Source: Devosia lacusdianchii
GTDB lineage: Bacteria > Pseudomonadota > Alphaproteobacteria > Rhizobiales > Devosiaceae
Reading direction: 5' to 3'
Assembly: GCF_022429625.1 (NCBI RefSeq)
Contig: NZ_CP092483.1
Coordinates: 3,472,001-3,536,000 of the forward strand
DNA: 64,000 nt
Shown here one piece after another: positions 10,129 through 30,924 of the stretch. The translations under genes were made by a program, and so were the position numbers. Numbering within the stretch: position 1 is the stretch's first letter; each line of letters opens with the position of its first letter. The notes under the pieces were generated by a model. The model worked only from the letters and a program-made list of their open reading frames with translations, searched no databases and was not told the origin of the DNA.

Positions 10129-10216
10129 GCGGCGGGCAGATTCCCCAAATGCACCTGGGCTTGCCCCCAGAGAGGCAACGCACCGCCGGCCGCCGCGTTG
10201 TCGCCTAGAAAGACAC

Positions 10217-10243
10217 GGCCCCCGCGACACTGTCTCGGGGACC
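10217..10243 (-). terminator. Hairpin terminator after the peptide-binding-protein gene
   Basis: On the minus strand GGTCCCCG and CGGGGGCC pair around GACA/TGTC inner bases, followed by a T-rich stretch (TCTTTCT). It lies 10 bases beyond the stop of the minus-strand binding-protein gene and probably ends the esterase/binding-protein transcript. Confidence 0.6.
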
Positions 10244-10252
10244 ATCTTGGCG

Positions 10253-11806: not shown

Positions 11807-11842
11807 AATATCTCCTCCAATCATGAGAAATGCAGTGTTCGA

Positions 11843-12667: not shown

Positions 12668-12754
12668 CGTGAAGCTCCCGGTAACCATCGGCGTTCCAGC
12701 CACGCCACTGGATCTGAACGCTACAGAATACGCCGCGCCACCGCAAGAAGATTT

Positions 12755-12771
12755 TGCGATCTGCGATCGCA
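12755..12771. promoter_or_regulatory. Operator A: 7-3-7 inverted repeat before the esterase operon
   Basis: TGCGATCTGCGATCGCA on the plus strand. Read on the minus strand it is TGCGATC-gca-GATCGCA, identical over 17 bases to site B at 23491. It lies in the intergenic space upstream of the minus-strand esterase/binding-protein unit. Proposed binding site of the GntR/FCD regulator at 30925. Confidence 0.75.
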
Positions 12772-12799
12772 CTTTTTACGATGATCGAGAAACGAGATA

Positions 12800-12821
12800 A
12801 CCCCGCCACTGGTGACGGGGT
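12800..12821 (-). terminator. Hairpin terminator at the end of the importer operon
   Basis: ACCCCG and CGGGGT arms with an inner CAC/GTG pairing, 28 bases beyond the stop of the minus-strand ATPase gene. It separates the long operon (23418 to 12849) from the operator A unit. Confidence 0.6.
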
Positions 12822-12848
12822 CATCTCTCGCATGCCCGCCGATTGGGG

Positions 12849-14488
<1,640 letters not shown>

Positions 14489-14489
<1 letters not shown>

Positions 14490-15319
14490 CACACGCCTCC
14501 CTGCATTTTAGGGTCGACCAGATCGCGGATCGCGTCGCCCATCAGATTGATGCCGAGCAGCGTAATGGTGATGCAGACACCGGGCAGCAGGATCAGCAGT
14601 GGCGCCTGGACGATGTAGGGCCGTGCGCTGGCCAGCATGTTGCCCCAGCTCGGATTGGGTGGCGGCACGCCCAGGCCGAGAAAGCTCAGCGCAGCCTCGG
14701 ACAGGATGATTCCGCCGAACATCATCGAAGCCAGCACGGTAATGGGCGGGATCGAATTGGGCAGGACATGGCGGAACATGGTGATCCAGTCCGGATTGCC
14801 CATGACCCTGGACGCATCGACATATTCGAGCTGGCGGATCGACAGCACGCTCCCGCGCACCACCCGCACCACAGCAGGCATATAGGCGATGCCAAGTGCG
14901 ACGATGATCCCCGAGGAGCTGGCGCCGAAGATCGCCATGATGCCGAGTGCCAACAACAGCCCCGGAAAGGCCAGCAGCGCATCGTTGATCATCATCAGCA
15001 GCCGATCGACGATGCCACCGAAAAATCCGGCGACGACGCCGATGACGAGCCCGAGCGTCAGGGCAAAAGCGAGGGTAGAGAACGCGATCCAGGCACTGGC
15101 CTGAGCCCCGACGAGCAACCGGCTGAGCGTGTCGCGGCCGAACTCGTCCGCGCCCAACCAATGAGCAGCAGACGGACCGGTCAAACGAGCGCCAAGATCG
15201 AGCGCATTGGGCTCGTAGGGCGCAAGAAAGCCGCCGAACAGCGCCAGAAACGCCAGCAAGGTGACCACGGTGACGCCAGCCACCAGATTCAACCGCAGGG
15301 AACTCGGTTTGATGCTCAT
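14489..15319 (-). CDS. Peptide-type ABC transporter permease (DppC-like)
   Basis: A 276-residue inner-membrane permease with about six hydrophobic segments. The N-terminal LGADEFGRDTLSRLLVGAQ block typifies DppC/OppC proteins, and the cytoplasmic EAA-type loop YVDASRVMGNPDWITMFRHV near residue 165 contacts the ATPase. The start overlaps the DppB-like stop by 4 bases and its stop adjoins the ATPase start, so the three importer genes are coupled. Confidence 0.94.
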
Positions 15320-16257
15320 TCCGTCACCCGCGGGTCAAGAAGGGGGTAGACCAGGTCTACGAGCAGGTTGACGACCACATAGATGAAGGTGATCAGCAGG
15401 ATGCAGCCCTGCACCACCGGATAGTCGCGTCCATAAATGCTGTCGACCAGCAGCCGGCCCAGGCCAGGAATGGTGAAGACCGTCTCGGTGATGGCGATGC
15501 CCCCCAAAAGGCCGCCCAGGCTCAACCCCAGCAGGGTCCAGGTCGGCGCAAAGGAATTGCGCAGGGCGTGCCGGCGGATGATCTGCCCTTCCGACAAGCC
15601 CTTGGCGCGCGCATGGGTGATGTACTCGAGCCGGGCGACGGAGATCGTACTGGCCCGCGTCATGCGCACCAACGAACCTATCTCGACGAGAAACAGGGTG
15701 AAGACCGGCATGGCGAGATACTTGAGCGCCCCCACCCAGTCCGACTTGAAGGACACAAAGCCCACCACCGGAAACCAGCCCAAGATCAAGCCGAACACCG
15801 TCAGGATGATCAGGCCCAGCCAGAAACCAGGAATGGACATCAGCAGGGTCACAAGCGACACCAGGGCCGTGTCGGTGGCGCTGTTCTGCCGCCAGGCGGC
15901 CCACAGGCCGACGGGCACCGCGACAAGCGCCGCCAGCGTCAGCGCGATGACGACGATAGGCGCGGAAATCGCGAAGCGGTCGAGTACCAGTTGCAACACC
16001 GGCTGCCCCGAATTGATCGAGACCCCGAAATCTCCCGCCAGCACATTGCGCAGCCAGTAGAGGTATTGCAGCGGCAGGGGATGATCGAGGCCGAGCCGGG
16101 CGCGCAGTTCCTCCACCTGGCCCGGCAGCGCGTCATCGCCCAGCATCAGCTCGGCCGGATCGCCCGGGATCAGCCGCACGATGGCGAACACCACGATCGA
16201 GACGATGAACAGCGTCGGTATTGCCGACGCTATTCGGCTCAATATGAATTTCAGCAT
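15316..16257 (-). CDS. Peptide-type ABC transporter permease (DppB-like)
   Basis: A 313-residue inner-membrane permease. The N-terminus MLKFILSRIASAIPTLF and the following IPGDPAELMLG are typical of DppB/OppB, and the EAA-type loop YITHARAKGLSEGQIIRRHA lies near residue 200. The ATG at 16257 is preceded by GAGGGG; the open frame runs further upstream into the C45 hydrolase gene, but that part has no family similarity. It is 23 bases downstream of the C45 hydrolase gene and in the same operon. Confidence 0.94.
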   Translation of the reverse strand: MLKFILSRIASAIPTLFIVSIVVFAIVRLIPGDPAELMLGDDALPGQVEELRARLGLDHPLPLQYLYWLRNVLAGDFGVSINSGQPVLQLVLDRFAISAPIVVIALTLAALVAVPVGLWAAWRQNSATDTALVSLVTLLMSIPGFWLGLIILTVFGLILGWFPVVGFVSFKSDWVGALKYLAMPVFTLFLVEIGSLVRMTRASTISVARLEYITHARAKGLSEGQIIRRHALRNSFAPTWTLLGLSLGGLLGGIAITETVFTIPGLGRLLVDSIYGRDYPVVQGCILLITFIYVVVNLLVDLVYPLLDPRVTE

Positions 16258-16280
16258 AGTCGTTCCCCTCCTGGCCGCGT

Positions 16281-17462
16281 TTACTGGGCGGCCACCTGCT
16301 TGCTGTCGCGTGCAGGATTTGCCAGTGCGGCGCGCTGCATCGCATCCGGGTCCATATCGAGACGATACTGGGTGACTTCGGTATTGAGGGCGGGCAGCGG
16401 GGTCACCTCCATGAGCCCATCCGCCGGCCGGAACATGACCAGCGCCACCGTGGCACCCAGATTTCCGGTGATGGCAGGATTGGGCGCGCGGCACACGGCA
16501 TAGGGCTCGCCGAACTTGTCGGAAAGCGCGTCGCGCACGTCGGCCCAGCCGATGTGGCCGATCCGCGGGCGCAGATACTGGCGCACCCTATAGTCCCGGT
16601 AGAGACTGTCAGGCATGAAGGCCAGGCCCATTTCCTTGAGCTTGGCCAGCGCGACCTGGCTCTGCCAGTGATTTGTATGCACGATGATCCCGTTGTCGGG
16701 ATAGAGCGGGAAGACTTCGTCGGGGGCGCATTCGAGGTCCACCGCAAAGCCATCGACCGAACTGATAATCATGTTGTTCGAGGTCGACTTCGGCGTGGTG
16801 GCGACAACGCGAATTGCGTTGGCGAGGTAGCTCTGCTCCAGAACCTTGCGCCGGATCAGCGCCAGCGGAATCCCCACCTGGCGGTAGTCCCGGTCGGATT
16901 CCAGGTAGTTGGCGGTGATCGCCAACCCGGCCGAGTTGAAGCCATTGCGGGCCAGCCCACCGGCCTCGGTGAAGGTCAGGATGTCGGGGCCATCCTCCTG
17001 CCGCACCTTGAGCACCACAGACGTATTGGCGCATTCGGACAGCCAGTCCCAGGTCTGGGCGTGGATCAGGTCGCCTTCGGCTGTCGCCTCGGGCAGGATC
17101 ACCACGCCCGTGCACCCATCGGGCTCCCCCGCGGCCGATTTGGCCTGGAATTCCCGACGAACCATCTGCACGATCTCGGTGCGGGCGTTGACCAGTACGA
17201 TCTGCTGGAAATCGACGCCGGCGCCTTCGGCAATGCCGCGCATCTCCTCGATGTGGTGCGGCGCCCAGGCCTCGATCTTGGCGATGAGACCAGTCGTCAG
17301 GCGCGGCAGGTCGGAGAGCGCGAAATCCAGCTTGGTCATCTGGCCGGCATAGAGATCGATGGACGCCTGGATGCGTTGCCGAGCGGCCTCGCCATAAGCC
17401 CGCCCACGCGCCTGCGGCGGGCCGGACACCTCGATCAATGGAAAATTGGCAATGGCGCTCAT
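16281..17462 (-). CDS. C45-family (acyl-CoA:6-APA acyltransferase-like) Ntn hydrolase
   Basis: A 393-residue protein of the C45 / isopenicillin-N acyltransferase-like group. In this family an N-terminal-nucleophile Cys is exposed by autocleavage, here predicted at Gly116-Cys117 (DGCTGVV). Downstream blocks AQTWDW, NGFNSAGLAITANYL and HTNHW match the family. Known members cleave or form amide bonds of acylated amino compounds, so here it may deacylate the imported substrate. There is no signal peptide, so it is cytosolic. It sits between the serine hydrolase and the importer genes in one operon. Confidence 0.85.
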   Translation of the reverse strand: MSAIANFPLIEVSGPPQARGRAYGEAARQRIQASIDLYAGQMTKLDFALSDLPRLTTGLIAKIEAWAPHHIEEMRGIAEGAGVDFQQIVLVNARTEIVQMVRREFQAKSAAGEPDGCTGVVILPEATAEGDLIHAQTWDWLSECANTSVVLKVRQEDGPDILTFTEAGGLARNGFNSAGLAITANYLESDRDYRQVGIPLALIRRKVLEQSYLANAIRVVATTPKSTSNNMIISSVDGFAVDLECAPDEVFPLYPDNGIIVHTNHWQSQVALAKLKEMGLAFMPDSLYRDYRVRQYLRPRIGHIGWADVRDALSDKFGEPYAVCRAPNPAITGNLGATVALVMFRPADGLMEVTPLPALNTEVTQYRLDMDPDAMQRAALANPARDSKQVAAQ

Positions 17463-17507
17463 GCGGCCCTCCGAAAACTCAGGTGTGCTTGTTTGATGAC
17501 TTTGGCC

Positions 17508-18650
17508 TTAGGCATGGCTGACCGACCGCAGCATTTCCATGAGGACCTGGTCGAGCGCTTCGTCGCTTGGCAAAGGCTCGGCGGAAAGACGGACGATGAC
17601 CGTTTTGGTAGCCGGGTCCATCCACAGCCACTGGCCGTGAATGCCGATGCCCGCCAGAATCCCGGCCCCATCCTGATAGAAATACGAGCGGTAGCTGCCA
17701 CCGGGGAACAGGTAGGCCTGGTCTCCATCAGCCCAAATCGCCCGATCGCCGCCGCGCCAAAGTTCGGCGACCCGGTCGGCCGGGACGATACCCTTGCCGC
17801 CCTGCCGCAACATTTCGCCCACCCGCGCCAGGTCACGCGCCGTCGCCGACATGCCGCCGCCCGCCCGGGCCGTGCCGGCCCGATCCACGGTGATGTGCGC
17901 ATCCGAATACGCCCCTATCGGCAGCCAGATCAGGTCGCGCACCAGATCGGCGAAGCGCTGTCCCGTGATCACCTCGAGCAGGATGCCCGCCAGGTCGGTA
18001 TTGATGGAGTGGTAGCGATGCCGCGTGCCGTGCTCATGCGCGGCCTTGCGGACCGTCGCAAGAAACGGACGCAGATCGGGCGCCGGATCACCGGGCTTCT
18101 CAGGGTTCCACAGCATGGCGCGGCGGTAGCGGTCGAAGGCACCGCTGGTATCGAGGAAGTCGTCGGTGAATTCGACGCTGACCTGCATGTCGAACAGGTG
18201 CCGCACGCTGACATCGCCATAAGCCGAGCCGATCATGTCGGGCATGATGTCGCCGACCAGCGCGTCGAAAGAGAGCCTGCCCTGCTCGGCCAGAATTTCG
18301 GCGATCAGCCCGGTGATCGACTTGGTGATCGAGAACAGCAAATGCGGTCGCGCCGGATCATAATGCGCGGCATACCATTCGGCCTCGATCAGGCCATCAC
18401 GCATCACCACGAAGGCATCCGTGGACGTCTCGGTCAGGAATTCGGGCAGTGCCACCATCGGCCCGGCGAGCGAACGCACATGAAGGGACGCAAGCGAGCC
18501 CAGATCGCGCACTGGCGTCTCAGCCTTACGCCGGGATGCGATAATCGCCGAGGGCACCAGTTCGGAGGCGTTGTGAAAGGCCCACTGTGAATAAGGCAGG
18601 GTCCGCCAATTAGCCAATGTGACATCGCTGCGGGTGAATGACGGCGTCAT
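17508..18650 (-). CDS. Beta-lactamase-fold serine hydrolase
   Basis: A 380-residue hydrolase of the class C beta-lactamase / 6-aminohexanoate-dimer hydrolase type. The Ser107-x-x-Lys110 motif SITK is followed by YHSIN, equivalent to the Tyr-x-Asn element, near residue 220. No signal peptide is present, which argues for a cytosolic esterase or amidase rather than an antibiotic-resistance enzyme. Start choice is uncertain: ATG 18650 has GGAG 12 bases upstream, while GTG 18668 has AAGGAA almost touching it. It sits 46 bases upstream of the C45 hydrolase gene, so two independent hydrolases are encoded side by side. Confidence 0.85.
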   Translation of the reverse strand: MTPSFTRSDVTLANWRTLPYSQWAFHNASELVPSAIIASRRKAETPVRDLGSLASLHVRSLAGPMVALPEFLTETSTDAFVVMRDGLIEAEWYAAHYDPARPHLLFSITKSITGLIAEILAEQGRLSFDALVGDIMPDMIGSAYGDVSVRHLFDMQVSVEFTDDFLDTSGAFDRYRRAMLWNPEKPGDPAPDLRPFLATVRKAAHEHGTRHRYHSINTDLAGILLEVITGQRFADLVRDLIWLPIGAYSDAHITVDRAGTARAGGGMSATARDLARVGEMLRQGGKGIVPADRVAELWRGGDRAIWADGDQAYLFPGGSYRSYFYQDGAGILAGIGIHGQWLWMDPATKTVIVRLSAEPLPSDEALDQVLMEMLRSVSHA

Positions 18651-18734
18651 CGGACTGAAAATCTCCACTTCCTTCGGGCCGGACAGTACCGGCCGGGCGA
18701 CGGGCCGCCGTTCAAGGCAGCGGCCCGCCGCAGG

Positions 18735-20111
18735 TCAGGGCCGCAATTCGGCCAGGGCGCTATCCAGCGCTTTCAGCAGGCGGTCGCCGGCCAGATCGAT
18801 TGTGGCGCGTTCCCAGATCAGAGGCGGCGCCATGATGATGGAGCTGCCGACGGCACGCACCATCAGCCCATTGGCGATAGCGTGGTCGCGCACCTTTGTG
18901 CCGGCGGTGCCTGACGGCATGTAGCGCTCGCGGGTCGTCTTGTTCTTGACCAGTTCGACAGCCGCCATCAGGCCAACGCTGCGCACTTCGCCGACCAGCG
19001 GATGGCCCGCGATCCGCTCCTGCAGCATCTGGGCAAGATAGGGCCCGGTTTCCTCGCGGACCCGGCCGATCAGGCCTTCACGCTCGATAATCTCGAGGTT
19101 CTTGAGCGCCACGGCACAGCACACCGGATGGGCCGAATAGGTGTAGCCATGGAAGAACTCGCCACCCTTTTCGACCAGGGTATTGGCGATCCGGTCGCCC
19201 ACCAGCAGCGCCGAGAGCGGCTGATAGCCCGAGGTCAGCGCCTTGGCCGTGGTGATGGTGTCGGCCTCTATGCCGAAGGTCTGGGCGGCGAACCAGTTGC
19301 CGGTACGGCCATAGCCGGTGATGACCTCGTCCAGCATCAGCAGCACGTCGTACTTGGTGCAGATGCGCTGGATTTCGGGCCAGTAGCTGGCGGGCGGAAT
19401 CTTGACGCCGCCAGCGCCCAGAATGGGCTCACCGATGAACGCGGCCACCTTGTCGGCGCCGGCCGCAAGGATGGCGCCCTCGACGGCGCGGGCCGCCCTC
19501 AGGCCGAAATCGTGGTCGCTCTCGCCCGGCTCGGCCAGCTCGAAGGCGTAGGGCGGGATGACATGCACGATGTTGGGCACGGCGCCATTGAGCTGGTTGT
19601 GCATGTCGGTCATGCCGCTCAGCGACGCACCGGCAATGGTGGAGCCGTGATAGCCCGAGTTGCGGGCGATGACGATGTTCTTCTCCGGCTTGCCTTCCAG
19701 CGCCCAGAAGTGACGCACCAGGCGCAGCGCCGTGTCGTTGGCCTCCGAGCCGGACGTGCCGAAGAACACCTGGTTCATGTTCTCGGGCGCGATCTCGGCC
19801 AACTTGGCAGCCAGCATGACCGGGGCCGGCGTCGAGCAGCGGAAGAAGGAATTGTAGAAGGGCAATTCCTCCATCTGCCGAGCCGCGGCGTCGGCCAGCT
19901 CCTTGCGGCCATAACCGACATTGACGCACCACAGGCCGGCCATACCGTCGAGCAGTTCAAGGCCTTCGGTGTCGTAGATATAGGGCCCCTCGCCGCGCAC
20001 GATCATGCGGGCGCCATTGGCGCGCAGCTCCTTGTGGTCGGTGAAGGGATGCAGGTGGTGGGTGTCGGCCTGCTGCAACTGGGCGCGGGAGTATTTGGTA
20101 TTGGTGGTCAT
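18735..20111 (-). CDS. Class III (omega) aminotransferase, copy 1
   Basis: A PLP-dependent aminotransferase of 458 residues that moves a terminal amino group to an oxo acid. Family landmarks are LHPFTDHKELRANGARM, GLWCVNVGYG, the GTSGSEANDTALRLVRHF block near residue 120, LDEVITGYGRTG, and the PLP lysine in TTAKALTSGY. The closest described groups are putrescine/beta-alanine/omega-amino acid:pyruvate transaminases (SpuC-like). ATG 20111 has AGGA eight bases upstream; GTG 20114 is the alternative. It is separated from the BKACE gene by 138 bases and continues into the serine hydrolase 66-84 bases later. Confidence 0.94.
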   Translation of the reverse strand: MTTNTKYSRAQLQQADTHHLHPFTDHKELRANGARMIVRGEGPYIYDTEGLELLDGMAGLWCVNVGYGRKELADAAARQMEELPFYNSFFRCSTPAPVMLAAKLAEIAPENMNQVFFGTSGSEANDTALRLVRHFWALEGKPEKNIVIARNSGYHGSTIAGASLSGMTDMHNQLNGAVPNIVHVIPPYAFELAEPGESDHDFGLRAARAVEGAILAAGADKVAAFIGEPILGAGGVKIPPASYWPEIQRICTKYDVLLMLDEVITGYGRTGNWFAAQTFGIEADTITTAKALTSGYQPLSALLVGDRIANTLVEKGGEFFHGYTYSAHPVCCAVALKNLEIIEREGLIGRVREETGPYLAQMLQERIAGHPLVGEVRSVGLMAAVELVKNKTTRERYMPSGTAGTKVRDHAIANGLMVRAVGSSIIMAPPLIWERATIDLAGDRLLKALDSALAELRP

Positions 20112-20249
20112 CACATAAGTCCTGATGGATGTCTCTAAGAGGTGGTCGACGGTTCGCTCAGGGTTGGGCGGGCGGCGAATAGCCGATGCGCGCGCACAAG
20201 CGCATCAGCTCGAAATACTTGCAGCAAGACGATGGGGTGGGAACGGCGA

Positions 20250-21056
20250 TCATGGTTGGCCTTCGCCTTGACGCGGAGTGGAGGCGATAGCTTCAGCGAT
20301 CAACCGAATGGCGGCAACACGCGCCTGGTTTGACGGCGCAACGCTGCCATCGGCGTGCAGGAGATTGTTCTCGAAGCCGACCCGCGCCTTGCCGCCGGCG
20401 CGCAGCGCCGCTGCCAGGCAAGCGGTTTCGCCCTGCCCGAAGGCACACACCATCCAGTCGGGTGCATGCGACAGCCCACCCGCCGCGTCGAGGAAAGACT
20501 CGAGGTCGGATGGCGCGCTGCTCTGGTCGACGGAATACCGGCCCAGCACATAGAGTAGTGACAGGCTTGCGCCGTCTACCGCGCCCGAGGCGACCAGGCC
20601 AACGAGCCGCTCAAGGTCGGCCGCATCGTAGAGAATGTGCTGCACGGCAATGTCGGCCGCAGCACACCATTGGTAGAACCGGGCGGCGGCCGGCTCGTCG
20701 GAACCTGCCGGAGCAAGCTCGCGCAGCGCCGCCGAAATGGCAGCGGGCCGCAGGTCGCGCACCATCTGCATCTGCGCTTCCGGCGTGTAGCGCCCGACGG
20801 CCTCGGTCGAAACCTGCACCAGCATGCCCGGCGCCTGTTCCGCGACGAGATCGATCACCTGCCGATAGCGGGTGGCATCAAGCAGGTGCCCGCCACCGTC
20901 AGCACGGACATGGGCGTGAATAGCGTCGGCGCCGGCCAGTTGGCATTCCCGCGCCGTCGCCGCAATTTCCTGCGGCGTCATGGGCAGTTGCGGGTGGTCC
21001 GCCTTGGTGCGCCGGGCGCCGGTGGGCGCCACCATGATGCGTGGCAGGGTCATCAT
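20250..21056 (-). CDS. Beta-keto acid cleavage enzyme (BKACE, DUF849 family)
   Basis: A 268-residue TIM-barrel enzyme of the BKACE family (formerly DUF849), whose members condense a beta-keto acid with acetyl-CoA to give acetoacetate and a new acyl-CoA. MVAPTGARRTKADHPQLPMT at the N-terminus, IHAHVRADGG (the Zn-binding His pair) near residue 50 and the later AVQHILYDA fit the family. It overlaps the upstream dehydrogenase gene by 4 bases (ATGA). This dehydrogenase-BKACE pair is the same arrangement used for carnitine in described systems, so the pair should convert a beta-hydroxy acid to a CoA ester plus acetoacetate. Several BKACE subfamilies have unknown substrates. Confidence 0.88.
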   Translation of the reverse strand: MMTLPRIMVAPTGARRTKADHPQLPMTPQEIAATARECQLAGADAIHAHVRADGGGHLLDATRYRQVIDLVAEQAPGMLVQVSTEAVGRYTPEAQMQMVRDLRPAAISAALRELAPAGSDEPAAARFYQWCAAADIAVQHILYDAADLERLVGLVASGAVDGASLSLLYVLGRYSVDQSSAPSDLESFLDAAGGLSHAPDWMVCAFGQGETACLAAALRAGGKARVGFENNLLHADGSVAPSNQARVAAIRLIAEAIASTPRQGEGQP

Positions 21057-22003: not shown

Positions 22004-23418
22004 AGGCACCCCTCCGCCCGAAGTTCAACGGCGACGTCGGCAATGGCATCGCGCAGGCTATTGGCCAGGGTCGCCAACTCGGCCTCGCTGACAATGAAGG
22101 GCGGCGACAGCGCAATCGTATCGGAATTGGGCAATGCGCGGACCAGAATGCCGCGACGCCGCGCGGCGAGGGCAACCCGCCCGGCTGCCTTGATTGTCGG
22201 CGCGAAGGCGGTCTTGTTGGCCTGGTCGGCGACCAGTTCGACGCCCATCATCAGACCGGCCGAGCGGATATCGCCGACGAGGTCGAGACCGGCAAGCGTG
22301 TCGGGAAACATGCGGGCGAAGGTCGGCGCGATTTCGGCCACGCGCTCCACCAGCCCTTCCCGCTCGAGGATATCGAGATTGGCCATAGCGGCAGCCGTAC
22401 AGGTCGGGTGGCCCGAATAGGTAAAGCCATGCGCGAACACCCGGCCATCGGCTGCGGCCGCTTCGAAGACCGACCAGATCTTGTCGCCAACCAGCACCGC
22501 CGACAGCGGAAGATAACCGCTGGTCAGACCCTTGGCAGCGAGAATGAGGTCCGGCTGCATGTCGTAGAGATCCGAGCCGAACCAAGTGCCGAGGCGACCA
22601 AAGCCGGTGATCACTTCATCAGCCACCAGGCGAACGTCGTAGCGCTCAAGCACTTCGCGAATGGCCTGGAAATAACCTTCGGGCGGCGGCAGCACGCCGC
22701 CAGTGCCCATGACGGGCTCGGCGATGAAACCGGCAACGGTATCGGGACCTTCCGCGAGGATCATGTCCTCGATCTCACGCGCCAGGATGGTGGAATAGGC
22801 CAGCTCGCTCGTGCACTGCCTGGCCGGCGCGTCGCGGTAGAGATCGGGCTTGGACACATGGCGGGCGAAGTTCAGCGGCAGGCCGAAATGCTGATGCACC
22901 ATGGGCACGCCGGAGAGGCTGCCCGAGGCCACCGACACGCCGTGATAGGCGTAGGAGCGCGAGATGATCTTGCGCTTTTCCGGCTTGCCGCGACAGATAT
23001 TGTAGCTCCACAGCATCTTGACCGCGGTGTCGTTGGCGTCCGAACCCGACGAGCCATAGAACACTCGCTTCATCCCCGCCGGCGCCAGCCGCAGCAGCCG
23101 CTCCGACAGGGCAATGCTGGGCGCATTGCTGATGCCGTTGAACGAGTGAAAGAACGGCAACTGCTGCGACTGCGCGGCAATAGCCGCCGAAATCTCCTCG
23201 CGGCCATAGCCGACATTGACGCACCACAGGCCCGCCGCACCGTCAAGATAGGTGCGTCCGTCGATATCGGTGACAGTGCAGCCATGGGCGCGATCCATGA
23301 CGATAGGGCCGACCGCTTGCTGGTCCCTGATCGCCGTGAACGGGTGGAAGAAGGACGCGCGGTCTTGCGCCTTCAAAGCATCGATTCCCGCGGCTGCAGC
23401 ACCAAGCGCACCATGCAT
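22000..23418 (-). CDS. Class III (omega) aminotransferase, copy 2
   Basis: A PLP aminotransferase of 472 residues, closely similar in layout to copy 1 at 18735: LDGAAGLWCVNVGYGREE, GSSGSDANDTAVKMLW, VADEVITGFGRLG and PLP lysine in LAAKGLTSGYLPLSAVL. The open frame runs 240 codons further upstream into the reductase gene. The true start is ATG 23418, which follows GGAGGG and lies 73 bases from operator B. It is the first gene of a minus-strand operon that may run ten kilobases, to 12849. Having two distinct omega-aminotransferases suggests a diamine-type substrate or two successive deaminations. Confidence 0.93.
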   Translation of the reverse strand: MHGALGAAAAGIDALKAQDRASFFHPFTAIRDQQAVGPIVMDRAHGCTVTDIDGRTYLDGAAGLWCVNVGYGREEISAAIAAQSQQLPFFHSFNGISNAPSIALSERLLRLAPAGMKRVFYGSSGSDANDTAVKMLWSYNICRGKPEKRKIISRSYAYHGVSVASGSLSGVPMVHQHFGLPLNFARHVSKPDLYRDAPARQCTSELAYSTILAREIEDMILAEGPDTVAGFIAEPVMGTGGVLPPPEGYFQAIREVLERYDVRLVADEVITGFGRLGTWFGSDLYDMQPDLILAAKGLTSGYLPLSAVLVGDKIWSVFEAAAADGRVFAHGFTYSGHPTCTAAAMANLDILEREGLVERVAEIAPTFARMFPDTLAGLDLVGDIRSAGLMMGVELVADQANKTAFAPTIKAAGRVALAARRRGILVRALPNSDTIALSPPFIVSEAELATLANSLRDAIADVAVELRAEGCL

Positions 23419-23490
23419 GACAACATTCCCTCCGACCCCGGAACCCGCACGTCCGAGCCCACAAAACTGATCTCCACCGACTCTATATAG

Positions 23491-23507
23491 TGCGATCGCA
23501 GATCGCA
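23491..23507. promoter_or_regulatory. Operator B within the promoter of the main catabolic operon
   Basis: Perfect inverted repeat TGCGATC-gca-GATCGCA. On the minus strand it is followed at once by TATATA, a good -10 element, with TATTGT 17 bases before it as a plausible -35. The repeat thus fills the spacer of the promoter for the aminotransferase operon, the place expected for repression. Confidence 0.8.
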
Positions 23508-23548
23508 CAATAGCATCCAAGGCAGAATGACCCGTCGACGCTGAGACG

Positions 23549-25465
23549 CTAGAGTTCCACCTCGACGGAACCCACAGGATTGGTCGAACAAGCCAGCACG
23601 AACCCATCCTGTTTTTCTTGATCTGACAGGACGTTACGCGCCGGATCGGCACAGTTCGCCGCGAGTTGCCATTGGCCGCTGCGAATTCGGCAGCGACAAG
23701 TTCCACAGATGCCAGCCTCGCAGTCGGATTGCAGAATGATGCCCCGATCTCTGGCCAGATCGAGCAGCGTCCGCGCGCCTTCGCCGGTCGCGGTGCGACC
23801 GCTATTGACGAAGGTAACATCGTAACGCCCGATCCGCGGCAGCGCGCGGGCATCCACCCTCTCTCCGCCAAAGCTTTCTTCCACATAGGAACCACGAACC
23901 GGCACGGGCCAATTCGCGTGCAGGTCCCTGACAAGCGCACGAAAGCCCTCCGGTCCGCAGCAAAGCACCGCACGTTCGGTAAGGTCCGGCGCCACCGCCG
24001 CCAGCATGGCCGCATCCAGGCGGCCGGCATGGATATCGCGGGCGGGCCGGCCCGTGGCATTCCACGTGATGCTGAGCCGCCCGGCCATCTGGCGCTGCAG
24101 CACCTCCAGCTCGCGCCGAAACGGCAGGTCGACCCCATCGCGGCCGCTGTGGTGGAACCGTATGTCGCGATCGAGATTATGATCGGCGATGTAGCGCAGC
24201 ATCGACATCATCGGCGTGATACCGCTGCCGGCTGAGATCATGAGGATCGGCCGGGCCGCGTCGACGATCCCGAGGTGAAACTTACCCCCCGGCCCGACCG
24301 CGCGTAGCCGGTCGCCAACGCGCAGCTTGTTATGCAGGTGGTTGGAGACGACACCGCCTGGCACGCGCTTGACCGAGATCGACAGATGCGCCGGCCGCGA
24401 TGGCGACGAGGAAATCGTGTAGTTCCGCCGCACTGGTTCCCCGTCGATTTCGGGCAGGATGGCCAGGTACTGGCCAGGCAGGTAGTCGAAGGCGCGGTCC
24501 GCCTCGAAGCGAAAGCTCACCATGTCGGCGGTTTCAGCGACACGACCGACACAGGTCAGCACCAGTTCGGAACGCCCGCCACCGGGGGCAGGCCGCGCCG
24601 CCGGCAGCGATGACACCGGCGCCACCAGAGGCGGTCCGGACAGCTCAGGCGGCGGCTTGCGCGACAGGATTTCGATCGGCGTGCCGGCAAATATGCGGCC
24701 GCGCGAGCGAGGCACCAGGAACTGGCCAAAATAGACCTTGCCATCGGCCCCGCGCCGATGGCGCACCAGGAGCGACAGCGGCTCGCGTTGCGGGTCGGCG
24801 GCGCCGCTTTCCGGATCGAGCGTAATCATGACGCAGCGGTCGCAGGGACCGGCCACGGTGAACTCGACATCGCCGATGCGGATGCTCTCCCAGCTATCCT
24901 CGGCGAAGGCGGCCGCGCCGGTCACCACCAGATTGGCCCGGAAGCGCGCGATGTCGACTGGCGTCTCGAGCTGCGCGTTGACCGCCGCCAGCGAGGCCGC
25001 ATTCACCAGCAGCAGCGGCGCCGTGTCGGCGAAACTCACGGGCCCGCCTTGCGGCAGTCCAGCCTGACGCTTCGTTCCGGCATGCTCAAGGGCCAGCCGG
25101 CAGGGACGCTCAAGCAGTGCGGCCAGCCAGTCCGCGGCCGCATCGCCCCCATCGAGCGCCGCGACCGCGTCCCCCCACACACTGGCCTGGCCCGTCATGG
25201 GGAGAAGGCTCGGCAGGAAAATGGTCAACGGCGCCCTGCCCGGCGCCGTCAGCACGATCTCGTCCCGGTCCACCTGCACCGAGATGGTCAGCAGTTCTGG
25301 CGCGGTTCGCGCCGTCAAAGCCACGCCGCCGGCGTCGATCACCATCATCCGGCGATCGCCGGCCAGTCCCTTGTCCTCCAGCCGCGCACTGCCAACAGCA
25401 GTGCCGCCAGCCGATTTCAACGGATAGATATGGATGCTGTCGAGCTGCGGCCCGGCCCCGTCCAT
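23549..25465 (-). CDS. MOSC domain / ferredoxin-NAD(P) reductase / [2Fe-2S] ferredoxin fusion
   Basis: A 638-residue fusion. Residues ~8-90 form a MOSC N-terminal beta barrel (IHIYPLKSAGG) and ~115-265 a MOSC domain, with CDRCVMITLDPESG (Cys208, Cys211) at the position of the molybdenum-ligand region in mARC/YcbX. Residues ~300-400 form an FAD-binding domain (RRNYTISS), ~405-530 an NAD domain (ISAGSGITPMMSML), and ~545-638 a plant-type ferredoxin with cluster cysteines 582, 587, 590 and 626. YcbX and mARC reduce N-hydroxylated compounds; this protein would carry its own electron chain. It could instead be the reductase for an oxygenase encoded elsewhere. It starts 4 bases after the ALDH stop, in the operator C operon. 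Confidence 0.88.
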   Translation of the reverse strand: MDGAGPQLDSIHIYPLKSAGGTAVGSARLEDKGLAGDRRMMVIDAGGVALTARTAPELLTISVQVDRDEIVLTAPGRAPLTIFLPSLLPMTGQASVWGDAVAALDGGDAAADWLAALLERPCRLALEHAGTKRQAGLPQGGPVSFADTAPLLLVNAASLAAVNAQLETPVDIARFRANLVVTGAAAFAEDSWESIRIGDVEFTVAGPCDRCVMITLDPESGAADPQREPLSLLVRHRRGADGKVYFGQFLVPRSRGRIFAGTPIEILSRKPPPELSGPPLVAPVSSLPAARPAPGGGRSELVLTCVGRVAETADMVSFRFEADRAFDYLPGQYLAILPEIDGEPVRRNYTISSSPSRPAHLSISVKRVPGGVVSNHLHNKLRVGDRLRAVGPGGKFHLGIVDAARPILMISAGSGITPMMSMLRYIADHNLDRDIRFHHSGRDGVDLPFRRELEVLQRQMAGRLSITWNATGRPARDIHAGRLDAAMLAAVAPDLTERAVLCCGPEGFRALVRDLHANWPVPVRGSYVEESFGGERVDARALPRIGRYDVTFVNSGRTATGEGARTLLDLARDRGIILQSDCEAGICGTCRCRIRSGQWQLAANCADPARNVLSDQEKQDGFVLACSTNPVGSVEVEL

Positions 25466-25469
25466 GGCG

Positions 25470-26915
25470 TCACCAGCCGGAATAGGCGGTCTTGACCGTG
25501 GTGTAGAATTCCTTGGCGTAGGCGCCCTGCTCGCGCGGACCGTAGTTGGACGCCTTGGTGCCGCCGAAGGGCACGTGGAAATCGACGCCCGCCGTGGCGA
25601 CGTTGACCATCACCATGCCGCTGCGCGAATGACGCTTGAAGTGCTCGGCATATTTGATCGAAGTGGTGGCAATGCCGGCCGACAGCCCGAATTCGGTGTC
25701 CTGGGCAACGGCCAGCGCTTCGTCGTAATCCTCGACGCGGATCAAGCAGGCGACGGGGCCGAAGACCTCCTCCTGATTGATTCGCATGGCATTGCTAGTG
25801 GCCGAGAATAGCGCCGGCTGCAGGAAGAAGCCCTTGGTCGGACGATCCACAAGCTCCCCGCCCGCTTCGAGCACGCCGCCCTCCGCCTTGGCGATCGCGA
25901 TATAGTCCAGGTCCTGGTGCAACTGCCGCGCGTCGACGACCGGACCAACCTGGCTCGCGTCATCCAGCGAATGGCCCACACGGATGGCCTCGATCCGCGT
26001 GCGCAGCGCGTCGAGCAGCCGGTCGTGGATACCCTTGGTGACGATGATGCGGCTCGAGGCCGTGCAGCGCTGCCCGGTGGAGTAGTAGGAGCCGCTGACC
26101 ACGGCTTCCACGGCAATGTCGAGATCGGCGTCGTCGAGCACGACATAAGGATTTTTGCCGCCCATTTCGGCCTGAATACGCGCCCCGCGCCCGGCGACGG
26201 TCGCGATGGCCGCGCGGCCAGTGGCCACTGACCCGGTGAACGATACCGCGTCGATGCCGCGATGCTCCATGATCGCCTGCCCGACCACGCGGCCGGGACC
26301 CATGACCATGTTGAGCACGCCGTCCGGCAGGCCGGCGCGCCGCAATATGTCGACGAGGGCCCAGGCCGAGGCCGGCACCAGATCGGCCGGCTTGAACACC
26401 ACCGTATTGCCATAGGCGAGCGCGGGCGCGATCTTCCAGGCCGGAATGGCGATGGGGAAATTCCACGGCGTAACGATACCGACGACGCCGACCGGCTCGC
26501 GCGTCACCTCAACCTTGATGCCGGCGCGGATAGATGGCAGCACGTCGCCCGGATTGCGCAGGGCTTCGCCGGCCATGAACTTGAAAACCATGCCGGCGCG
26601 GACGACTTCGGCCCGTCCCTCGGCGCGGATCTTGCCCTCCTCACGGCTCAGCAGATCACCCAATTCATCGCGGCGGGCCAGGATTTCCGTCGCGGCGCGA
26701 TCGAGAATGTCGAAACGCTGCTGCGGCGTGGAGAGCGACCACGAGGCCAGCGCATGGCGCGCGGCGTCGACCGCCGCATCGACCGAAGCGGCTGTGCCGC
26801 TGGCATAGAGCCCGATGACGTCATCGATGTCGGAAGGGCTGCGGTTCTCTCGCGCCTCGGCGCCATCCACCCAAGCGCCACCGATCAGGTTGGCGCGAAC
26901 TGCCAGTTTGTCCAT
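25470..26915 (-). CDS. Aldehyde dehydrogenase (ALDH superfamily), copy 1
   Basis: NAD(P)-dependent aldehyde dehydrogenase, 481 residues. Landmarks are GVVGIVTPWNFPIAIPAWK, VSFTGSVATGRA, the catalytic Glu in QAEMGGKNPYVVL and catalytic Cys in TGQRCTASSR near residue 282, and a C-terminal VPFGGTKASNYG. The profile resembles 2,5-dioxovalerate / succinate-semialdehyde type enzymes. ATG 26915 follows GAGGCG. It is first in a two-gene unit with the MOSC-reductase fusion, under operator C, and probably oxidises an aldehyde produced by the aminotransferases. Confidence 0.94.
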   Translation of the reverse strand: MDKLAVRANLIGGAWVDGAEARENRSPSDIDDVIGLYASGTAASVDAAVDAARHALASWSLSTPQQRFDILDRAATEILARRDELGDLLSREEGKIRAEGRAEVVRAGMVFKFMAGEALRNPGDVLPSIRAGIKVEVTREPVGVVGIVTPWNFPIAIPAWKIAPALAYGNTVVFKPADLVPASAWALVDILRRAGLPDGVLNMVMGPGRVVGQAIMEHRGIDAVSFTGSVATGRAAIATVAGRGARIQAEMGGKNPYVVLDDADLDIAVEAVVSGSYYSTGQRCTASSRIIVTKGIHDRLLDALRTRIEAIRVGHSLDDASQVGPVVDARQLHQDLDYIAIAKAEGGVLEAGGELVDRPTKGFFLQPALFSATSNAMRINQEEVFGPVACLIRVEDYDEALAVAQDTEFGLSAGIATTSIKYAEHFKRHSRSGMVMVNVATAGVDFHVPFGGTKASNYGPREQGAYAKEFYTTVKTAYSGW

Positions 26916-27001
26916 TGTATATTCGCCTCGTCCTGCTCTCGAAAGGTTATGCTGACAGGCACTCACAAGGTGCTTGGCAAGTCATGCAGGCATCAATATA
27001 C

Positions 27002-27018
27002 TGCGATCGCAAATCGCG
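27002..27018. promoter_or_regulatory. Operator C between the two aldehyde dehydrogenase genes
   Basis: TGCGATC-gca-AATCGCG, matching sites A and B at 15 of 17 positions. On the minus strand it is followed by TATATT (-10) with CATTGC 17 bases before, the same geometry as site B. It lies 87 bases upstream of the minus-strand ALDH start and 116 bases before the divergent plus-strand ALDH, so it may control both. Confidence 0.75.
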
Positions 27019-27133
27019 CAATGACGTTTGATAATTTCAGGCTAATTCCGCCTACAGCATTAGAATAATTGCGGAAAAATTCGACACTGGCCGATCTGCC
27101 TGCGAAAAAACTACAAATTGGGATGCATGATAG

Positions 27134-28642
27134 ATGACCGAAAGTGCGCGTGTTGGGGATCGGGATTACTGGCATGCCCTGGCCGGATCGGTCGCCTTGC
27201 CCAACCAGGCCGTCATCGGCGGGCAACAGGTGGATGCGCGCTCCGGAAAACGTTTCGCGACGATCAATCCGGCGACTGGCGCGCTGCTGACTGATATCGC
27301 CGAGGGCGACGCTGCCGACATCGACGCCGCCGTTGCCGCGGCCCGACGCAGCTTCGACGCCGGCCATTGGCGCAACCAGAGCCCGCTAGCCCGCAAGCAG
27401 GTGTTGTTGCGGCTGGCGGAGCTGATGCGCGCGGAGCAGCAGCAATTGGCCGCGATGGAATCGCTCGATATGGGCAAGCTCGTGCGCGACGCCTCCGGCA
27501 ATGATATCCCTACCGCCATCAACATCCTGCAGTGGCATGCCGAAGAGATCGACAAGGTCTACGACGAGGTCGCCCCACTGCCTCCGGGCAATATCGGTCT
27601 CATTCGCCGGGTGCCGCTTGGCGTTGTCGGCGCTGTAGTGCCCTGGAATTTTCCGCTCAACATGGCGGTCTGGAAGTGTGCGCCGGCGCTCGCCGCCGGC
27701 AATAGCGTCGTGCTCAAACCTGCCGAACAGTCGCCGCTGACCGCCCTGCGGTTTGCGCAACTGGCGCTGGAAGCGGGCCTGCCCGAGGGCGTGCTCAACG
27801 TAGTACCGGGCTTTGGCGAAACGGCCGGGCAGGCGCTGGGGCGTCATATGGACGTCGACTGCCTGGCCTTCACCGGCTCGACCGCCGTCGGCAAGATGTT
27901 CCTCCGCTATGCCGGCGACTCCAACCTCAAGCAGGTCTGGCTGGAATGCGGCGGTAAATCTCCGGTGGTCGTCTTCGAGGATTGCGAGGACCTGGAAACC
28001 GCGGCCGACCAGGTCGCATCCGGAATTTTTTATAATCAGGGCCAGGTCTGCTCAGCCGGGTCGCGCCTGATCGTGCAGAACTCCATCCGCACCAAGTTCC
28101 TCGACCTGTTGACGGCGCGCCTGTCCCAGTACCAACCGGGCGATCCGCTCGATCCGCGATCGGGCCTGGGCGCCATGGTCGAGGCCAGGCATGCCGCCAA
28201 CGTCATGCGCTATGTCGAGGCGGGGCGGCGCGAGGCGACGCTGGTCGCCGGTGGCAATGCAGTCCAGGTTGACGGTAGCGGTAGCTTCATCGAGCCGACC
28301 ATCTTTGCCGATGTGCACCCGGATGCCGTCATCGCCCGCGAGGAGATCTTTGGCCCGGTGCTGGCCGTGCTTGGCTTTTCGGACGAGGACAAGGCCATCG
28401 CCCTGGCCAATGACAGCATCTACGGCCTGGGCGCTTCGCTATGGACCGACAACCTGTCGCGCGCCCATCGGGTGTCCGAACAACTGGTCGCCGGCGTGGT
28501 CGGGGTCAACGTCGTCGATCCGATCAATCCTGCTGTACCGTTTGGCGGCTTCCGCCAATCCGGCTCGGGCCGTGACCTCTCGCGCCACGCGGTCGAGAAA
28601 TACACTGCGCTCAAAACCACCTGGATTCGGTTCAAGAACTGA
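27134..28642 (+). CDS. Aldehyde dehydrogenase, PuuC-like, copy 2
   Basis: A 502-residue ALDH. GVVGAVVPWNFPLNMAVWK, FTGSTAVGKM, catalytic Glu in WLECGGKSPVVV, catalytic Cys in NQGQVCSAGSR near residue 306 and FGGFRQSGSGRD are all present. The length, the N-terminal extension and the position directly before a PuuA-like ligase and a PuuD-like hydrolase match PuuC, which oxidises gamma-glutamyl-aminobutyraldehyde in the putrescine-utilisation pathway. The ligase gene begins 9 bases downstream. No puuB-like oxidase is in the window, so the aldehyde may come from an aminotransferase. Confidence 0.93.
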   Translation: MTESARVGDRDYWHALAGSVALPNQAVIGGQQVDARSGKRFATINPATGALLTDIAEGDAADIDAAVAAARRSFDAGHWRNQSPLARKQVLLRLAELMRAEQQQLAAMESLDMGKLVRDASGNDIPTAINILQWHAEEIDKVYDEVAPLPPGNIGLIRRVPLGVVGAVVPWNFPLNMAVWKCAPALAAGNSVVLKPAEQSPLTALRFAQLALEAGLPEGVLNVVPGFGETAGQALGRHMDVDCLAFTGSTAVGKMFLRYAGDSNLKQVWLECGGKSPVVVFEDCEDLETAADQVASGIFYNQGQVCSAGSRLIVQNSIRTKFLDLLTARLSQYQPGDPLDPRSGLGAMVEARHAANVMRYVEAGRREATLVAGGNAVQVDGSGSFIEPTIFADVHPDAVIAREEIFGPVLAVLGFSDEDKAIALANDSIYGLGASLWTDNLSRAHRVSEQLVAGVVGVNVVDPINPAVPFGGFRQSGSGRDLSRHAVEKYTALKTTWIRFKN

Positions 28643-28651
28643 CACAAGCCT

Positions 28652-30049
28652 GTGGTTGCCCCGCGCGACCAAGCCCCGGAGCTGAAATTGCACAATCCTT
28701 CGACAATCGCCGATGTCCTGCACTGGTTGGAGACGCGGCCCGACATCCAGACGATACGCGCCGCCGTCTGCGACCTGAACGGGGTGATGCGCGGCAAGCG
28801 CATTCCGGTCGACCAGGCCCGCAAGGTCATGGAAAACACCCTGCGCATGCCGCTGTCCGTGGTCGGCCTCGACATCTGGGGCGGCGACATCGACAACAAT
28901 CCCATGGTGTTCAACACCGGCGATGTCGACGGCATCGGCGCCTGGACCGGGCGCGGCATCCTGCCGGTCGAGTGGACAGCGCATCCGACGGCTTTTCTGC
29001 CCGTCTGGCTGCAGAACGATGCCGGCGTCCCCTACCTGGCCGATCCGCGCCGGGCCCTTGCCGCAGTTCTGGCGCGCTATGCGGCGCTGGGGCTGACGCC
29101 GATGACGGCGGTTGAGCTGGAGTTTCACCTCGTCGACGCCAGTGGCGACATCCCCAAAGGCGCTGTTTCACCAACCACAGGACGCAACCTGGATACGGCC
29201 GCCGCCATGGCGATGGAGGAGGTCGACCAGTTCGAGGCCTACTTCCACGAGGTCTACGCCGCCTGCCGTCAGCAGGACATTCCGGTCGACACGACAATCG
29301 CCGAAAATGGCAGCGGCCAGTTCGAGATCAATCTGGGCCACCTGCCCGATGCGCTGCGGGCGGCGGATGATGCCGTGTTTTTCAAGCGCACGGTCAAGGG
29401 CATTGCCCGCAAGCATGGCTTTGCTGCCAGCTTCATGGCCAAGCCCTATGGCAACTTCTCCGGCAATGGCCTGCACATTCACATGAGCCTGCTCGACCGC
29501 GAGGGCAAGAACGTCTTTGACGACGGCACCGACCGCGGCACCGATATGATGCGCCACGCCGTTGGCGGCCTCTTGGCGGGCATGGCGGAAAGCACACTGA
29601 TCTTCGCGCCGCACTACAACTCCTACCGCCGCCTGCGGCCCAATTCCTATGCCCCCACCGCCGTCGCCTGGGGCTATGAAAACCGCATGGTCGCCATCCG
29701 CATTCCTGGCGGATCGTACAAGGCAAGGCGGATCGAGCACCGCGTGGCCGGAGCGGACGCTAACCCCTACCTGGTGATGGCCGTGATGCTCGGCGCCGCC
29801 CTGATCGGTATCGAACGCACCATGGCTCCCGGCGAGCCACGCCTGGCCGACGCCTATGCCAACGACCTGCCGAAGCTCCCCAATAGCTGGCGCGCCGCCG
29901 CCGACGCTTTTGAAGCAGGTCCCATGATGGCGGAAATCTTCGATCCTGAGCTGATCCAGTCGCTCCTCGCCTGCAAGCGGCAGGAGATGGACATCTTCGC
30001 GGCCCATGTCAGCCCGTTCGAATACCGGACCTATCTGGAAGCCGTGTGA
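28652..30049 (+). CDS. Glutamine synthetase family, gamma-glutamyl-polyamine ligase (PuuA-like)
   Basis: A 465-residue type I glutamine-synthetase-fold enzyme. RAAVCDLNGVMRGKRIP near residue 35 and TAVELEFHL, NGSGQFEINLGH, GNGLHIHMSL and NRMVAIRIPGG are the metal- and ATP-site blocks. The N-terminal pattern (no ammonia-site signature, DLNGVMRGKR) is that of PuuA/GlnA-like ligases, which join glutamate to an amine such as putrescine using ATP. The start is GTG 28652, nine bases after the ALDH stop. The stop overlaps the PuuD-like start. Confidence 0.92.
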   Translation: MVAPRDQAPELKLHNPSTIADVLHWLETRPDIQTIRAAVCDLNGVMRGKRIPVDQARKVMENTLRMPLSVVGLDIWGGDIDNNPMVFNTGDVDGIGAWTGRGILPVEWTAHPTAFLPVWLQNDAGVPYLADPRRALAAVLARYAALGLTPMTAVELEFHLVDASGDIPKGAVSPTTGRNLDTAAAMAMEEVDQFEAYFHEVYAACRQQDIPVDTTIAENGSGQFEINLGHLPDALRAADDAVFFKRTVKGIARKHGFAASFMAKPYGNFSGNGLHIHMSLLDREGKNVFDDGTDRGTDMMRHAVGGLLAGMAESTLIFAPHYNSYRRLRPNSYAPTAVAWGYENRMVAIRIPGGSYKARRIEHRVAGADANPYLVMAVMLGAALIGIERTMAPGEPRLADAYANDLPKLPNSWRAAADAFEAGPMMAEIFDPELIQSLLACKRQEMDIFAAHVSPFEYRTYLEAV

Positions 30050-30846
30050 GCATGAACACCCCCCTCATCGCCGTGACCTGCGACACTCGTGAGTTTGACG
30101 GCGCCCTTTGGCATGCAACCCAGCAGCAATACGTCAGTGCGGCCGCCAATGCCGCCGGGGTAACGCCGTTGCTGGTGCCGGCGCTGGGCGCCACGCTCGA
30201 TCTTGATCGCGTGCTGGATGCTGTGCATGGGGTAATGGCGACCGGCTCCAAGTCCAACGTGCATCCCGCGCTCTATGGCGGCGACGCCAGCGAAGCCAAC
30301 GGCCCCTACGATCCGGCGCGGGACGCGACATCCTTGCCGCTGATCCGGAAGGCGCTCGAGCGTGGCATTCCAGTGCTGGCGATCTGCCGGGGCATGCAGG
30401 AACTTAATGTGGCTCTGGGCGGCACCCTGCAGACCGAAATCCAGGAGCGGGACGGCGCACTTGACCACCGGATGCCCGACGCTCCTACCCGCGACAAACG
30501 CTACGCGCCGCGCCAGACGCTGACCGCAGCCCCCGGCACCTGCCTTGCCGCCATTGCCGGAGCAGCACCCATCCAGGTCAATTCCCTGCACCGTCAGGCC
30601 ATTGACCGGCTCGCGGCCGGACTTCGCGCCGAGGCCTTCGCGGAGGATGGGATTATCGAAGCCGTATCCCCAGACAACGCCCAAGCGTTCGCGCTCGGAG
30701 TTCAATGGCATCCGGAGTACTGGGCGACCAGCGATCCCACCTCAGCCGCAATTTTCGCCGCCTTTGGCGATGCGGTAAGGCGACACGCTAGCGCTCGACC
30801 ATCACGATCACCGATCGCAGAATTTTCTACCAGGTTAGGAGCCTAG
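30046..30846 (+). CDS. Gamma-glutamyl-gamma-aminobutyrate hydrolase (PuuD-like)
   Basis: A class I glutamine-amidotransferase-fold hydrolase of 266 residues. Nucleophile Cys114 lies in AICRGMQELN, and His and Glu in GVQWHPEYW. In putrescine degradation PuuD releases glutamate from the gamma-glutamylated acid. The order ALDH, ligase, hydrolase reproduces puuC-puuA-puuD. GTG 30046 overlaps the ligase stop and has GGAAG five bases before it; ATG 30052 is possible. Operator D lies inside its last codons. Confidence 0.92.
   Translation: MSMNTPLIAVTCDTREFDGALWHATQQQYVSAAANAAGVTPLLVPALGATLDLDRVLDAVHGVMATGSKSNVHPALYGGDASEANGPYDPARDATSLPLIRKALERGIPVLAICRGMQELNVALGGTLQTEIQERDGALDHRMPDAPTRDKRYAPRQTLTAAPGTCLAAIAGAAPIQVNSLHRQAIDRLAAGLRAEAFAEDGIIEAVSPDNAQAFALGVQWHPEYWATSDPTSAAIFAAFGDAVRRHASARPSRSPIAEFSTRLGA
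30803..30819. promoter_or_regulatory. Operator D upstream of the GntR regulator gene
   Basis: CACGATC-acc-GATCGCA: one arm is identical to sites A and B, the other matches at 5 of 7. It lies within the 3' end of the puuD-like gene, about 105 bases before the regulator start, in the place expected for autoregulation. It is the weakest of the four sites. Confidence 0.5.
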
Positions 30847-30924
30847 AGATGACACGCGAGGCTGGGAAGTTATATTGCATGGGCGGCAGACTGCGTCCGA
30901 CTTGGCACACAGATGGAGACTAAG

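Follow-up and report, generated by a model that had tools for sequence, protein, structure and literature searches.

A 17-bp palindrome as candidate operator of a GntR/FCD regulator in a catabolic gene cluster of Devosia lacusdianchii

Several GntR-family regulators of catabolic genes, among them AlkR, DhdR and PxpR, have been described as repressors. AlkR and Atu1419, both of the VanR group (operators ATTGTCAGACAAT, PMC12042122, and ATGTATACAT, PMC7797058, respectively), and DhdR (operator GTTATCAGATAAC, PMC8651671) are winged-helix GntR proteins that are encoded beside their targets, recognize a short palindrome in or near promoters and are released by a pathway metabolite. Here, we analyze a stretch of 64,000 nucleotides of the Devosia lacusdianchii genome (contig NZ_CP092483.1, positions 3,472,001 to 3,536,000; "the window", to which coordinates refer unless stated otherwise), in which the palindrome TGCGATC-N3-GATCGCA and its A/T flanks very probably serve the GntR/FCD protein encoded at 30913 as operator and define a local regulon. 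The window regulator is like the three proteins above in its fold, in its position beside the putative targets and in the shape and placement of its sites; release by a metabolite is assumed by likeness to them. It differs from them in operator sequence and spacing, and the DNA-contacting Arg45 of Atu1419 and AlkR corresponds to an aspartate.

The sites also depart from what is usual in the FCD subfamily. The FadR-subfamily consensus is given as TKGT/ACMA, with GT and AC mostly 3 nt apart (PMC4494728), and helix 3 Arg45 of Atu1419 is reported to make specific guanine contacts (PMC7797058). Neither feature is found here: the consensus TGCGATC-N3-GATCGCA has no GT/AC core of the TKGT-N2/3-ACMA type, and the residue aligned with position 45 is Asp57, which faces an arginine in 7xp0 and 3c7j and an isoleucine in McbR. 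Both features are usual in the subfamily, not defining, and exceptions have been published: NanR, BioR and others likewise deviate from the consensus, with sites that differ from ours in sequence and symmetry (TGGTATAW direct repeats and TTATMKATAA, as listed in PMC4494728). Among proteins of solved structure, the relative closest in sequence is McbR/YncC of Escherichia coli (PDB 4p9f, E 3e-17), which has been placed in the VanR group (PMC7797058, PMC13343897) and is likewise devoid of the arginine; its bound motif is given as ATATAT, with many A/T-rich sites, in a portion of the paper that mentions no GATC palindrome (PMC13343897). The initial annotation had regarded the palindrome as having a shape common for GntR/FCD repressors; this does not hold for its sequence, the published TKGT/ACMA core being missing, while the local regulon itself is upheld. 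Altogether, the system is of an ordinary kind, and what is unusual about it is the operator, no description of which was found in the open-access literature (subscription journals and regulon databases lay outside that search).

Conservation and distribution of the candidate operator

The two exact 17-mers at 12755 and 23491, the 15-of-17 match at 27002 and the site with one exact arm at 30803 on which the initial annotation was based were all re-found (hereafter O1, O2, O3 and O4, respectively; Table 1), and its statement that such a repeat is very unlikely by chance agrees with dinucleotide shuffles of the window, where the exact pattern is expected only 0.01 times. Matches with two mismatches occur in the window at 27002, 30803 and 36544; the last was dropped because it is not among the window's twelve highest-scoring matrix positions, which extend down to -4.8. 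The matrix in question is symmetric and was built from 48 sites of other loci, the window being left out; two of the 48 come from the locus of the nearest relative (L050, GntR 91%) and hence are not independent of the window. Its consensus core is ATATTGTGCGATCGCCGATCGCACAATAT, with conserved A/T flanks, and it ranks O2, O1, O3 and O4 in this order at the head of the window (scores in Table 1), the next position scoring 1.6.

The comparison started from 326 GntR homologues; the best 120 listed are 56–92% identical, many from Mesorhizobium, others from Rhizobium, Neorhizobium and Ensifer. One genome per species was then scanned with the window protein aligned to 17 of these homologues, and we used the best 80 of 106 confirmed loci. 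These 80 loci contain 34 exact, 55 one-mismatch and 38 two-mismatch sites. For comparison, 300 alternative permutations of the half-site, out of 629, gave, in the same loci, a mean of 0.017 exact matches (maximum 2) and of 0.78 matches with up to one mismatch (maximum 48). Only a spacer of 3 works: spacers of 0–2 and 4–8 yielded no exact site and at most four with up to one mismatch. In 29 loci that belong to other FCD regulators, 101 kb in all, there is no exact or one-mismatch site and a single two-mismatch one. More specifically, among the 89 exact and one-mismatch sites, 80 precede a cluster-gene homologue by less than 400 bp, nine lie elsewhere and none falls inside such a gene, which supports the proposal of a local regulon with one operator and a sole cluster regulator; the corresponding figures for the 38 two-mismatch sites are 17 upstream, 18 elsewhere and three inside. 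An upstream site is present in 75 of the 80 loci, and those without one include L066, the sequence of which stops 113 bp past GntR, L070, where the site is near a contig end, and L101, which has an exact site but no cluster homologue within 400 bp, besides the two loci devoid of a 17-mer (L074 and L129, see below).

Most of the 80 loci are from Mesorhizobium and carry one orthologous site before GS (gene names as in Table 1). In differently ordered loci, sites are found before AmT2, permB, BLac, ALDH1/2, the MOSC-reductase, SBP or GntR. In genome G350, two sites (L157:3777 and L157:4193) lie on contig 36 between SBP and BLac homologues, with the regulator on another contig, so that this pair appears to be a regulon member unlinked to the regulator. 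It is these other gene orders and G350 that carry independent weight, the sites staying with the genes. At the sequence level, the comparison thus establishes both the co-occurrence of site and regulator and the placement of sites before the same gene families in reordered clusters. Three other genomes of the order, picked by their MOSC-reductase, all have a GntR orthologue and matches to the operator profile, G305 being the genome of L124 and G350 that of L090, which makes this a check by another gene and not one on new genomes. Within the genus, the exact motif is found in one of 75 genomes, the present one, and is absent from the other 74; the best GntR matches listed, in 60 same-genus genomes, are 36–37% identical.

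In the whole 4.36-Mb genome, there are two exact, no one-mismatch and 26 two-mismatch matches (three of these in the window, 23 outside), against means of 0.4, 5.2 and 56, respectively, in five second-order Markov sequences of the same length. Two-mismatch sites elsewhere in the genome are at or below chance, and both exact copies lie 11 kb apart within one cluster. Many matches of equal strength at unrelated genes, which had been named in advance as the outcome to look for against a local regulon, were not seen: among the 23 two-mismatch sites outside the window, all of which were scored with the matrix, 21 score below 4, one scores 19.2 inside an ABC-ATPase-like reading frame (genome position 2441744), and one, the only intergenic site above 4, scores 11.0 between open reading frames (ORFs) at genome position 925926 (L007:1501; TGCAATCCCCGATTGCA). 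The latter is a possible remote regulon site, as a weaker candidate. A genome-wide search with a profile made from 45 of the 48 sites, in which 150 of 2534 candidates were scored, ranked O2, O1, O3 and O4 above all other genomic places found (15.3 bits for O4, 13.7 for the next). Apart from the weaker site at 925926, the shared operator thus precedes every transcription unit of the cluster and, genome-wide, is found only there.

It had been stated that each site lies in a space upstream of a transcription unit; this is correct for O1 to O3, and O4 overlaps the end of the PuuD-like ORF. The score of O4 is not beyond chance, since a 4.36-Mb first-order Markov sequence gives three matches of at least 15 and none of at least 18. 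What speaks for O4 is its conserved position in related loci: GATC-N3-GATC stands before GntR in all five aligned loci (the window and L050–L053), as strong sites in L051–L053, a weak one in the window and a poor one in L050. O4 is probably a weak, autoregulatory member of the regulon, and GntR transcription may also come from the O3 promoter. The predicted regulon is made up of three strong operators and this weak site.

Mode of action and alternative readings

By analogy with AlkR, DhdR and PxpR, the likeliest mechanism is repression through occlusion, relieved by a metabolite. The GntR protein, as a dimer or higher oligomer, would bind the sites, block the promoters of the transcription units of the cluster and weakly limit its own gene; it would be released on binding a metabolite of the imported, probably nitrogen-containing, compound. 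The best promoter-like sequence in 10000–29900, TTGGCA-N17-TATACT, adjoins O3 (Table 1), and at O2 the sequence TTGTGC-N17-TATAGA can be read through the operator. When 51 gene-directed sites are considered (divergent ones entered twice; 46 of the 51 lie outside the window), the agreement with a TATA-like hexamer downstream of the operator reaches, at offset +18, 3.27 of 6, against about 1.6 at most offsets.

Several observations weigh against this picture. Promoter-like matches in 10000–29900 are at chance number (four found, 4.0 expected), and the TATA-like score upstream of the operator is equally high (3.31 at -5), so that the direction of action is not fixed; the flanks share the palindromic symmetry, which explains why the hexamer appears on both sides of the operator. 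The regulator served to select the 80 loci, and most are from Mesorhizobium. Two of them, L074 and L129, carry a GntR orthologue and no 17-mer. The hydrolase/SBP unit, the putative target of O1, adjoins GntR without a nearby matching site in L061, L074, L093, L096, L118, L122 and L124, which are all the inspected loci with this arrangement. Finally, the weak site O4 overlaps a reading frame, and its counterpart at the matching place in L050 scores only 5.3.

The same symmetry of the A/T flanks, TATA-like on both sides, leaves the direction of control unreadable from the operator, and the GntR protein, bound at these sites, might activate the catabolic units or act on them as a dual regulator. 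This is unlikely: the promoter-like sequence at 26974–27002 would start transcription inside O3, O2 is located between TTG-like and TATA-like hexamers, and the regulators of catabolic genes cited above are repressors. A different regulator, unlinked to the cluster and co-regulating it, might instead occupy the palindrome, with the GntR protein using another site; this is very improbable. Since the GntR gene was the criterion for picking the loci, the association concerns the cluster as a whole; however, GntR is the sole regulator among the genes from 10253 to 31614, as the initial annotation had stated, the same GATC-N3-GATC shape occurs upstream of sister FCD regulators (see below), strong sites lie directly before GntR in L051–L053, and none of the 74 same-genus genomes mentioned above has the exact motif. 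Chance was rejected on the basis of the permutation and spacer controls, the same-genus genomes, the matrix ranking and the window shuffles. Nor is it credible that the repeats act as RNA hairpins or terminators: a terminator-like scan of 10000–29900 does give the palindrome at 12755, on both strands, but the better T tract follows it on the plus strand, where no cluster gene is running, no other operator site is returned, and a hairpin or chance origin would not account for the strict spacer and the A/T flanks.

A doubtful but more substantial possibility concerns the recognition unit itself, which might be the 10-bp palindrome TGCGATCGCA, the 17-mer then being TGCGATCGCA plus an extra half-site. 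The 10-mer is present in O1, O2 and O3 and has only these three copies in the window; L129 (GntR 56% identical), devoid of the 17-mer, has three copies (5984, 6103 and 11021), near HCDH and between the GntR and ALDH2 homologues; TGTGATCACA is found in 21 of 59 sister FCD loci; and extra half-boxes 7–12 nt from the center are described for GntR sites (PMC4494728). On the other hand, sites in L078, L089 and L117, such as CGCGATCGTCGATCGCA, keep the 17-bp dyad without the 10-mer. Note that the flank symmetry about the 17-mer arises from the construction of the matrix and does not decide between the two units.

Organization of the gene cluster

The minus strand carries a run of nearly adjacent genes, AmT2, 3HCDH, BKACE, AmT1, BLac, C45, the permeases and the ABC ATPase, which ends at 12849; beyond it, on the same strand, come the hydrolase-like ORF and then SBP, down to 10253. 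From 27.0 kb, ALDH1 and the MOSC fusion (23549–26966) run leftward, and ALDH2, GS and the PuuD-like gene rightward, followed by GntR. The GS, ALDH1, ALDH2, PuuD-like, 3HCDH and BKACE proteins missed the NCBIfam cut-offs and hence are named only as "-like". The MOSC reductase fusion is GbcB-like, with no oxygenase partner among the cluster genes, and relatives of it at E <= 1e-100 occur in only four of 397 genomes of the order, this genome included. Beyond GntR, positions 33366–35086 of the minus strand encode an ABC ATPase and a FecCD-type iron-transport permease, with no operator site.

Table 1. Operator sites, promoter-like sequence and genes of the cluster
Feature	Position	Strand	Remarks
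Family 5 solute-binding protein (SBP)	10253..11824	-	
PHA-depolymerase-like hydrolase ORF	11843..12772	-	below NCBIfam cut-off; first GTG at edge of O1, ATG 12667 the more likely start
O1	12755..12771	.	exact 17-mer TGCGATC-N3-GATCGCA; plus strand TGCGATCTGCGATCGCA; matrix score 39.9; upstream of putative target, the minus-strand hydrolase/SBP unit
ABC importer double ATPase	12849..14492	-	
Two ABC permeases	14489..16494	-	14489-15319 and 15316-16494
C45-family autoproteolytic acyltransferase/hydrolase (AAT)	16281..17462	-	
Beta-lactamase-fold hydrolase (BLac)	17508..18668	-	
Class III aminotransferase AmT1	18735..20114	-	
Beta-keto acid cleavage enzyme (BKACE)	20250..21056	-	
3HCDH, carnitine-dehydrogenase-like	21053..22009	-	
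Class III aminotransferase AmT2	22000..23420	-	start near 23420 predicted from homologues
O2	23491..23507	.	exact 17-mer; matrix score 46.4; upstream of putative target, the long minus-strand run from AmT2 to the ABC ATPase
MOSC + FAD/NAD + 2Fe-2S reductase fusion	23549..25465	-	
Aldehyde dehydrogenase ALDH1	25470..26966	-	
Promoter-like TTGGCA-N17-TATACT	26974..27002	+	ends on first base of O3, ALDH2 direction
O3	27002..27018	.	15/17 match; matrix score 36.0; between the divergent ALDH1 (-) and ALDH2 (+) units, facing both
Aldehyde dehydrogenase ALDH2, PuuC-like	27134..28642	+	
Glutamine-synthetase-like gamma-glutamyl ligase (GS)	28652..30049	+	
PuuD-like gamma-glutamyl hydrolase	30046..30846	+	
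O4	30803..30819	.	weak; one exact arm, two mismatches in the other; matrix score 16.0; about 110 bp upstream of GntR, overlapping last codons of PuuD-like ORF
GntR/FCD regulator	30913..31614	+	PF00392 + PF07729; recognition helix S56-D57-M58-P59-V60-R61

Recognition helix and sister FCD regulators

The regulator contains an N-terminal GntR winged helix-turn-helix (PF00392, 51.5 bits, cut-off 27) and a C-terminal FCD effector domain (PF07729, 63.5 bits, cut-off 24.3). In the VanR group of FCD regulators, the effector domain has six helices, the additional helix of FadR being absent. The recognition-helix segment TSDMPVR is invariant in all 18 aligned sequences, i.e. the window protein and its 17 orthologues. 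FCD domains usually carry metal-binding histidines; here, most of them seem to have been exchanged (the 18 sequences all have F147-K148-F149 and D217, and of the histidines H195 is kept), which suggests an unusual effector pocket.

To place the operator in a wider context, we turned to 86 loci of sister FCD regulators, mostly from the same order, 59 of which lack Arg/Lys at the helix 3 position and 23 have it, L179 being classed via a misplaced pattern match; three others were not matched by the pattern (by eye of the Arg type, none with a site), and one duplicate was dropped. TGATC-N3-GATCA with at most one mismatch occurs upstream of 23 of the 59 regulators without Arg/Lys versus none of the 23 with Arg/Lys; for TGTGATCACA, the corresponding figures are 21 of 59 and 0 of 23. 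The upstream regions of the former group hold 29 N3 sites in 26.5 kb, seven of them exact, other spacers giving 0–2 sites; the N5 form is found there 0 times, and twice upstream of the Arg/Lys regulators. Over the whole sister loci (302.8 kb), the N5 form is as common as the N3 form (53 and 50, respectively). The Fisher p value of 2e-4 for the association with absence of the arginine overstates independence because several of the loci without it are close relatives (e.g. L173, L174 and L176), and the association may reflect one event in one clade. As for TGTGATCACA in the open-access literature, the titles and opening lines of abstracts disclose no link to GntR, and one occurrence is a primer.

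Palindromes of the GATC-N3-GATC-like and TGTGATCACA types were seen upstream of many FCD genes without the helix 3 arginine in L017, L025, L030, L032 and L170–L190. The site L017:1282 (CGTGATTTTTGATCACG) precedes a 44%-identical FCD regulator by about 220 bp and reaches 17.1 in the window matrix, above O4. The window operator looks like the TGC/GCA version of this wider GATC-N3-GATC pattern. We lean, with some reserve, towards the view that FCD regulators without the helix 3 specificity arginine, with helices of the xMPVR type, form a separate class that would read GATC-N3-GATC with outer triplets TGT/ACA or, in the Asp57 group, TGC/GCA, in a 17-bp register (about one helical turn) or an overlapping 10-bp one, residue and site having changed together.

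In conclusion, the analysis assigns a candidate operator and regulon to an uncharacterized regulator that stands beside amine-catabolism-like genes in many Mesorhizobium as well as in Rhizobium/Neorhizobium and relatives. It marks the cluster genes, plus the pair on another contig of one relative, as a probable functional unit, which helps the search for the substrate. It also points to a candidate connection, within a very large family of bacterial regulators, between an altered recognition-helix residue and an altered operator sequence; if the separate recognition class is real, many unassigned regulators of this alphaproteobacterial order would thereby obtain operators.

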